From Salvelinus alpinus (lineage: Eukaryota; Chordata; Actinopteri; Salmoniformes; Salmonidae): a DNA stretch of 64,000 nt. Positions 20,997 through 61,667 of the stretch are shown in pieces (the first letter of the stretch is position 1; the number at the start of each line of letters is the position of its first letter). The translations under genes and the position numbers were made by a program. The notes below the pieces were generated by a model. The model did not search any database, was not told where the DNA came from, and worked only from the letters and a program-made list of their open reading frames with translations. The stretch covers positions 91,902,190-91,966,189 of the forward strand of contig NC_092091.1 in NCBI RefSeq assembly GCF_045679555.1. The letters are read 5' to 3'.

Positions 20997-21060
20997 TCAG
21001 ATCTCAAACCTCTCCTCTGTCAGGAAAGCGGTTCTGTTCATGATTCTGTTGTTGAAGAGT
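20997..21060 (-). CDS. Exon 21: probable terminal coding exon
   Basis: A 64-nt segment (1 nt + 20 codons + TGA) behind a textbook acceptor (eight T's, then CTCAACAG). Its phase fits exon 20 and the peptide begins [12 protein letters not shown]. Support is only splice signal plus phase, so it may be chance. A 35-bp minisatellite begins right after the stop, in the presumed 3' UTR. Confidence 0.45.

Positions 21061-61667: not shown

Follow-up and report, generated by a model that had tools for sequence, protein, structure and literature searches.

A charr gene joining a TRIM-type head, a stonustoxin-type core and an LRR tail of the kind that ends CARD-NACHT proteins

Stonustoxins, finTRIMs and NOD-like receptors (NLRs) are among the known systems closest to the gene analyzed here, which lies on the minus strand of a 64,000-nucleotide stretch of the Arctic charr (Salvelinus alpinus) genome (C6:91,902,190-91,966,189, hereafter the window) and is predicted to carry TRIM-, stonustoxin- and NLR-type parts in one chain. 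The finTRIM description reports B30.2 exons shuffled between TRIMs and NLRs (PMC2657112), and the work on zebrafish NLRs describes N-terminal repeats, each ~30 residues long and encoded by one exon, together with gene conversion affecting the C-terminal parts (PMC4852459). Some stonefish sntx-like genes are reported to exceed the usual length, as full-length transcripts confirm (PMC10566576). Three further papers name stonustoxin-like transcripts or an expression quantitative trait locus in Arctic charr and salmon (PMC6369366, PMC7316828, PMC13142024), none assignable to the window gene. A first-pass annotation, made from the sequence alone, had proposed one giant gene of a domain order for which it knew no described family.

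Domain architecture and proposed function

The spliced S. alpinus model has 22 exons, from window position 61667 to 20997, and 2,541 codons plus stop (Table 1): a head (E1 to E4), a core with FN3 (E5 to E7), repeat units (R0 to R6) and a tail (T1 to T8). GT/AG sites and phase agree at all 21 introns, and no stop interrupts the spliced frame. The first-pass chain of phase-compatible GT/AG exons stands, as do its boundaries at 61667 (start), 56341 (end of exon 4), 53652 (start of exon 5), 51043 (end of exon 7) and 20997 (stop); its counts of 21 exons and 2,511 codons are superseded. The S. alpinus RefSeq protein P0123 (2,023 aa, "uncharacterized") equals the model at 2,023/2,023 residues and omits part of the repeat array and tail exon T4; it is a prediction, as are the other homologue records used below.

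The domain order runs from a RING/B-box head through a stonustoxin-type MACPF/helical/thioredoxin core with FN3 and units of ~145 residues to an LRR end. A pattern search found eight Cys/His zinc ligands in a full C3HC4 RING pattern (residues 49-91), and Pfam a B-box (PF00643) at 37.1 bits against a cut-off of 24.1; the first B-box is weaker and ANCHR-like, above the cut-off on E3 alone and below it in P0123. The helical and thioredoxin-like domains are matched by PF21109 and PF18078, and Pfam gives two fn3 stretches in E7. The Pfam MACPF_SNTX score (20.6 bits) lies below the 27-bit cut-off; MACPF was assigned by profile and by fold match to stonustoxin (4wvm), the first sequence match of the profile. 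The structure prediction once suggested as a check of the middle was run on S. namaycush P0002, 98% identical over E7 (59 sequences; predicted local distance difference test, 83.7), and returned a stonustoxin-like fold with 4wvm as top match (6.5e-32). The tail was modelled within S. salar P0008, whose whole model is poor (52.8); its residues 761-1060, inside T1-T4, mostly have confidence values of 78-95, and their predicted fold best matches ribonuclease inhibitor and the LRR domains of NLRP and NOD2. The R region stayed at low confidence. Pfam detects a canonical LRR only near the extreme end (LRR_6, 26.6 against 23.4 bits in P0026; under the cut-off in P0123), and in P0123 it finds neither NACHT nor SPRY at E 0.05, R0 coming after FN3. 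The parts read at first pass hold up: a TRIM-type head through its RING ligands and B-box, a perforin/SNTX-like middle with FN3 through Pfam, profile and fold matches, an LRR-like tail through LRR_6 and the T1-T4 fold, and the lack of NACHT and B30.2. A 57-bp minisatellite lies inside coding E7, in the thioredoxin-like part (window 51815-51986), and its peptide repeat is far longer in O. tshawytscha P0001.

Every exon of R1-R6 and T1-T7 has phase 2 at entry and exit, which fits exons prone to duplication and shuffling. P0123 joins E7 directly to an acceptor inside R3, leaving a 157-base half exon of R0's length, and CAG stands at the matching internal place in 6/6 of the units R1-R6; the array can thus shrink by splicing, its use in cells resting on the RefSeq prediction. 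An excess of replacement change in the R units is only suggestive: replacement over silent is 1.36 among 14 full units of one type (five from the window, six from paralogue A and three from paralogue B; R1 was excluded, as were matches in A and B that were partial, divergent or gapped) against 0.73 among the five window units alone, and the pairs are not independent. Variable columns concentrate near the exon start and at mid-unit.

The reading that we favor, with modest confidence, is a functional immune-type gene in which a CARD-NACHT-type tail took the place of a PRY-SPRY end; its product would be an E3 ligase of the cytosol that senses through LRRs and is scaffolded by MACPF. The protein would stay in the cytosol, where repeat array and LRR tail may bind a microbial or damaged-self ligand, tunable via repeat number by splicing and duplication. 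Binding would cluster the protein through the B-box/linker and MACPF-stonustoxin core, and clustering would unite RING domains for ubiquitin transfer onto the target or partners. Sensor, scaffold and E3 parts, usually found in separate proteins, would be combined in a single chain.

For the MACPF core, a role as oligomerising scaffold, possibly on membranes, is likelier than that of a released toxin. Nothing in the data shows insertion into membranes, which is why a clustered E3 scaffold ranks ahead of a pore former; nor do they bear out the first-pass idea of permeabilising a target. A working pore former, whose core would perforate a microbe, vacuole or infected-cell membrane after LRR recognition while the RING controls turnover, is unlikely, even with a full MACPF-helical-thioredoxin core that matches stonustoxin in sequence and predicted fold. 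Stonustoxin-named transcripts are reported to rise in vaccinated Arctic charr (PMC6369366), yet they are not assignable to the window gene. A simple hydropathy scan found no transmembrane-strength stretch (best 19-mer 1.38) and no hydrophobic N-terminus (0.03); the lack of a signal or strongly hydrophobic segment argues against secretion, not against pores.

A tail type shared with CARD-NACHT proteins

What is new here is that the tail type of the window gene also ends CARD-NACHT proteins. Giant, uncharacterised CARD-NACHT proteins of teleosts (P0126 of S. alpinus, P0137 of Maylandia) contain R units and an LRR tail that, within salmonids, reach 96% identity with those of the window gene; the head of P0126 is CARD-NACHT-HD2, in contrast to RING-stonustoxin-FN3 in the window gene. 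The first-pass reading was incomplete in that the tail type recurs in the CARD-NACHT family and some relatives of the core have PRY-SPRY in the tail's place.

Among the best 120 of 728 full-length matches, RING, core, FN3 and R occur together in 45, of which 38 add three or more tail parts; CARD+NACHT+R accounts for 52 and NACHT+R for 3. The 45 records span 14 genera (Salvelinus, Oncorhynchus, Salmo, Prochilodus, Megalobrama, Cyprinus, Pygocentrus, Colossoma, Myxocyprinus, Astyanax, Danio, Triplophysa, Ctenopharyngodon and Labeo), so the domain order is already in sequence databases and hence not unique to charr. The first-pass remark that it knew no described family of this order needs correcting for the databases; in the literature, searches found no description of a RING-MACPF-FN3-repeat-LRR order by title or abstract opening among the matches listed. 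RING is joined to R without a stonustoxin core in P0165, P0211 and P0183 (two from Brienomyrus, one from Coregonus suidteri). Prochilodus P0124, one of the 45, holds an R-T tail and then a RING-core-R-T set in one model; it seems to merge two neighbouring genes, with tailed genes adjacent there too.

Three lines of evidence bear on how the tail came to be shared. First, a tail tree of 39 rows does not unite the TRIM-stonustoxin tails in a single clade (approximately unbiased test, p 5.75e-8): the three from salmonids share a starred group with seven NLR tails from salmonids and Dallia, and the nine from otophysans join otophysan and clupeiform tails in a second starred group. The window tail is 96% identical to a Salmo trutta NLR tail. 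As these trees read, tails cluster by fish lineage rather than by head type, and the cores lie within one clade. Second, such tails are neighbours in the charr genome, where T4 has at least 12 matches, 8 of them within C6:91.71-92.37 Mb. Eight 10-kb stretches checked for NACHT heads comprised four empty, two with NACHT exons and two with R or T exons. A first NLR neighbour (C6:91,875,353-91,885,400, plus strand) shows stop-free CARD and NACHT exons followed by R and T2-T4, with T1 and T5-T8 not found up to 91,888,999; this neighbour and the window gene, which ends in a stop near 91,923,186, are convergent. A second, starting beyond the stretch edge, has the end of its NACHT exons, four R units and T1-T4, to 91,846,926. 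Third, silent divergence (dS) of the window tail (T1-T4) is 0.024 to the second NLR, 0.039 to the first (T2-T4) and 0.020 to paralogue B; to B, the core has 0.052 and T1-T7 0.019 (p 0.011, rounded counts). The low tail dS across head types and the gap between core and tail fit recent exchange, and the two receptor types seem to pass one sensor tail between them. Independent fusions recurring at a single site are a less likely explanation.

The junction after FN3 was compared in 31 proteins. R0 begins at the identical residue in 23 of them (salmonids, cypriniforms, characiforms, Electrophorus, Chanos); other sequence follows in P0053 (S. salar), P0052 (Amia), P0057 (Lepisosteus) and P0118 (Ornithorhynchus), all listed with PRY/SPRY, and in P0124, P0022, P0023 and P0030 the model stops after FN3 or continues otherwise. 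A core tree of 36 hand-chosen rows gathers the tailed rows into a single clade of 18 rows (100/100), with the salmonid SPRY type as its sister. The strict tailed set fails the clade test (p 1.1e-5) because Denticeps, Bagarius and a truncated S. salar model fall inside the clade. The simplest reading is a single replacement of the PRY-SPRY end by R-T before the salmonid/otophysan split. An E2-RING-stonustoxin-FN3 gene would then have swapped its PRY-SPRY end for a CARD-NACHT-type tail, and tails would later have been exchanged repeatedly between the two gene types.

Two points weigh against this account. The 39 tail-tree rows, 12 of them TRIM-stonustoxin, were hand-picked after pairwise identities had hinted at the outcome. 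The best 120 matches also include 15 headless R(+T) records, 2 with core and no RING, and 3 with RING and R and no core, so that the core may have been gained and lost in more than one order.

A decoy or regulator, by which a tail protein without NACHT would vie with the CARD-NACHT neighbours for their ligand and attach ubiquitin to them or to that ligand, appears less probable still than the pore former. The window tail is as alike to that of a neighbouring NLR as to that of a TRIM-stonustoxin paralogue (dS 0.024 against 0.020), and the CARD-NACHT and window genes are convergent neighbours, as a decoy would have it; the constrained and structurally complete core is unneeded in a mere decoy.

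Returning to the LRR-sensing ligase, its boldest form remains tentative: a single chain, built by attaching an NLR-type tail to a TRIM-stonustoxin gene, would serve as LRR sensor, as MACPF-based oligomeriser or pore and as ubiquitin ligase, and two unrelated receptor classes would have traded a tail by gene conversion for >200 million years. If true, a newly evolved specificity could move from the inflammasome-type output of a CARD-NACHT protein to one that acts through ubiquitin or on membranes.

Gene integrity and paralogues

Comparison of sequences confirms that the TRIM-stonustoxin-LRR chain is a real, single gene, as first proposed: the identity of P0123, the exon order of the paralogues and homologues in other genera agree. 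Chance open frames are ruled out, E7 alone having 698 codons. Two close copies lie on C6. Copy B (92,409,609 to 92,370,530, minus strand, ~0.4 Mb from the window gene) has two E2 exons, E3-E7, R0, R units and T1-T8, all collinear on a single strand. Copy A (plus strand) falls into two blocks of the same direction, one at 91.594-91.650 Mb with two E2 exons, E3-E7, R0 and R units, the other at 91.705-91.712 Mb with R units and T1-T8; we infer that it is one gene, the 52 kb between the blocks lying outside the examined sequence. E2 is thus doubled in both copies and single in the window model. Whole-exon matches keep AG and GT at all borders checked (E2-E7 and R units of A; E5-E7, R units and T1-T7 of B). 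T8 of A and B is just 65% identical, and extra partial copies follow that of B. The charr genome has at least 33 core matches, three of them close core copies at C6 91.60-92.39 Mb.

A fusion by prediction of two or three adjacent genes (TRIM-like, stonustoxin-like, LRR-like) is highly improbable. It could appeal to the S. namaycush model P0002, which begins at an ATG inside E5, and to the E4-E5 intron of ~2.7 kb with its tandem repeats. That ATG could start a separate stonustoxin-like gene, yet it is not conserved (CRGMTE in the window, CRGLTE in A and B, CRSLTE in O. nerka P0003), and the leucine counts against separate genes. The E2-E7-R-T order is kept on a single strand in copy B, the FN3-R0 join lies at one identical site in otophysans and salmonids, and P0123 and 37 further records, all predictions, span RING to tail. 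On the unconserved ATG, the paralogue order and the shared join we dropped the separate-gene reading; order and joins likewise oppose the breaks between exons 4 and 5 or 7 and 8 that the first-pass annotation had named as fatal to its model.

Ratios of replacement to silent rates (omega) against copy A are 0.42 for the RING exon, 0.23 for E2, 1.34 for E4+E5 and 0.60 for the core, and against copy B 0.57 for the core, 0.37 for E5 and 1.16 for the tail. In neutrality tests with copy B the core gives p 0.022 and the tail p 0.85: the core is under constraint. We claim no positive selection on the tail, since its 1.16 cannot be told statistically from neutrality (p 0.85) or from the core value (p 0.27). 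A non-functional, decaying copy, to which a tail omega near 1 and introns rich in repeats and transposons might point, is equally improbable given an open frame of 2,541 codons, GT/AG at every intron and omega of 0.57-0.60 in the core and 0.42 in the RING.

Table 1. Exons of the gene model in window coordinates
Exon	Content	Position	Strand	Basis or remark
E1	Start codon (MNED)	61654..61667	-	GT donor, phase 2 out; P0123 starts identically
E2	30-codon N-terminal peptide exon (SPCLSMKSD..)	57409..57498	-	Model; also in PRY-SPRY-bearing P0053
E3	RING finger and B-boxes	56720..57305	-	Pfam RING PF15227 3.3e-13, B-box PF00643 3.4e-9; RING pattern
E4	Linker, coiled-coil-like by eye	56341..56457	-	Model; aligned in O. 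nerka P0003, present in paralogues A, B
E5	Linker into MACPF core, with internal ATG	53586..53652	-	Model, paralogue borders
E6	Start of stonustoxin-type MACPF domain	53413..53505	-	Model, paralogue borders
E7	Remaining MACPF, stonustoxin helical, thioredoxin-like, FN3	51043..53136	-	PF21109 2.4e-16, PF18078 4.2e-21, fn3 4.1e-12
R0	Half repeat unit attached to FN3	47960..48116	-	Model; identical junction site in other fishes
R1	Repeat unit, first half divergent	45891..46322	-	Model, unit comparison
R2	Repeat unit	44330..44761	-	Model, unit comparison
R3	Repeat unit; internal acceptor gives half exon 42898-42742 matched by P0123	42742..43173	-	Model, unit comparison
R4	Repeat unit	39107..39541	-	Model, unit comparison
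R5	Repeat unit	35378..35809	-	Model, unit comparison
R6	Repeat unit, acidic insert	27588..28037	-	Model, unit comparison
T1	LRR-type tail	24211..24477	-	Model, paralogue borders, predicted fold
T2	LRR-type tail	23829..24086	-	Model, paralogue borders, predicted fold
T3	LRR-type tail	23485..23730	-	Model, paralogue borders, predicted fold
T4	LRR-type tail, absent from P0123	22980..23237	-	Model; own-genome matches
T5	Tail	22284..22631	-	Model, paralogue borders
T6	Tail with canonical LRR	21916..22185	-	Model, paralogue borders; LRR_6 in P0026
T7	Canonical LRR	21191..21274	-	Model, paralogue borders
T8	Last coding exon and stop	20997..21060	-	Model; P0123 ends identically

The window also contains mobile elements. 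A Ty3/gypsy-type frame of 1,139 codons with reverse transcriptase, RNase H, integrase and chromodomain (29617-33033, plus strand) occupies the R5-R6 intron, and an endonuclease/reverse transcriptase frame of the long interspersed nuclear element type (870 codons) lies at 7823-10432 (minus strand). A DDE transposase fragment (PF13358) is at 58025-58408 (minus strand); a second transposase-like stretch, seen by eye, is at 46741-47635 (plus strand), with no Pfam match for 47121-47483. Tandem arrays lie just past the stop (20058-20987, 35 bp) and in introns at 48166-50629 (44/134 bp) and 58749-60247 (32 bp).

Comparison with known families

As in finTRIMs, RING and B-box share a single exon; by the definition in PMC2657112, the charr gene differs in having no B30.2 exon and in next exons of 117 and 67 bp instead of 96 and 234 bp, and finTRIM membership was rejected on these grounds. 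The N-terminal repeats of zebrafish NLRs, as given in PMC4852459, resemble E2 in length, the only property compared.

The same order of RING/B-box, stonustoxin core, FN3, R and LRR tail is found in si:ch211-281l24.3, named in one paper as a zebrafish transcript altered by chemicals, and in unnamed LOC proteins of cypriniforms, characiforms and salmonids. Core and tail parts of such otophysan proteins are roughly 25-60% identical to those of the window gene, and R units number 7-16 in otophysan rows versus 1-6 in salmonid rows. The salmonid RING-stonustoxin-FN3-SPRY proteins P0051 and P0053 have RING, core and FN3 in common with it, and P0053 the E2 peptide as well; P0053 differs beyond FN3, where other sequence with a listed PRY/SPRY follows.

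We know of no report of charr as venomous. Should the tail prove to be a recognition module that is shared and exchanged, fish would have a way to couple one specificity to two different outputs. Non-venom stonustoxin-type fish proteins gain a candidate role in intracellular immunity. Compared with the stonustoxin family (PDB 4wvm), with which it has the MACPF, helical and thioredoxin domains in common, the charr protein adds a RING/B-box upstream and FN3 and an LRR tail downstream, and is without PRY-SPRY.
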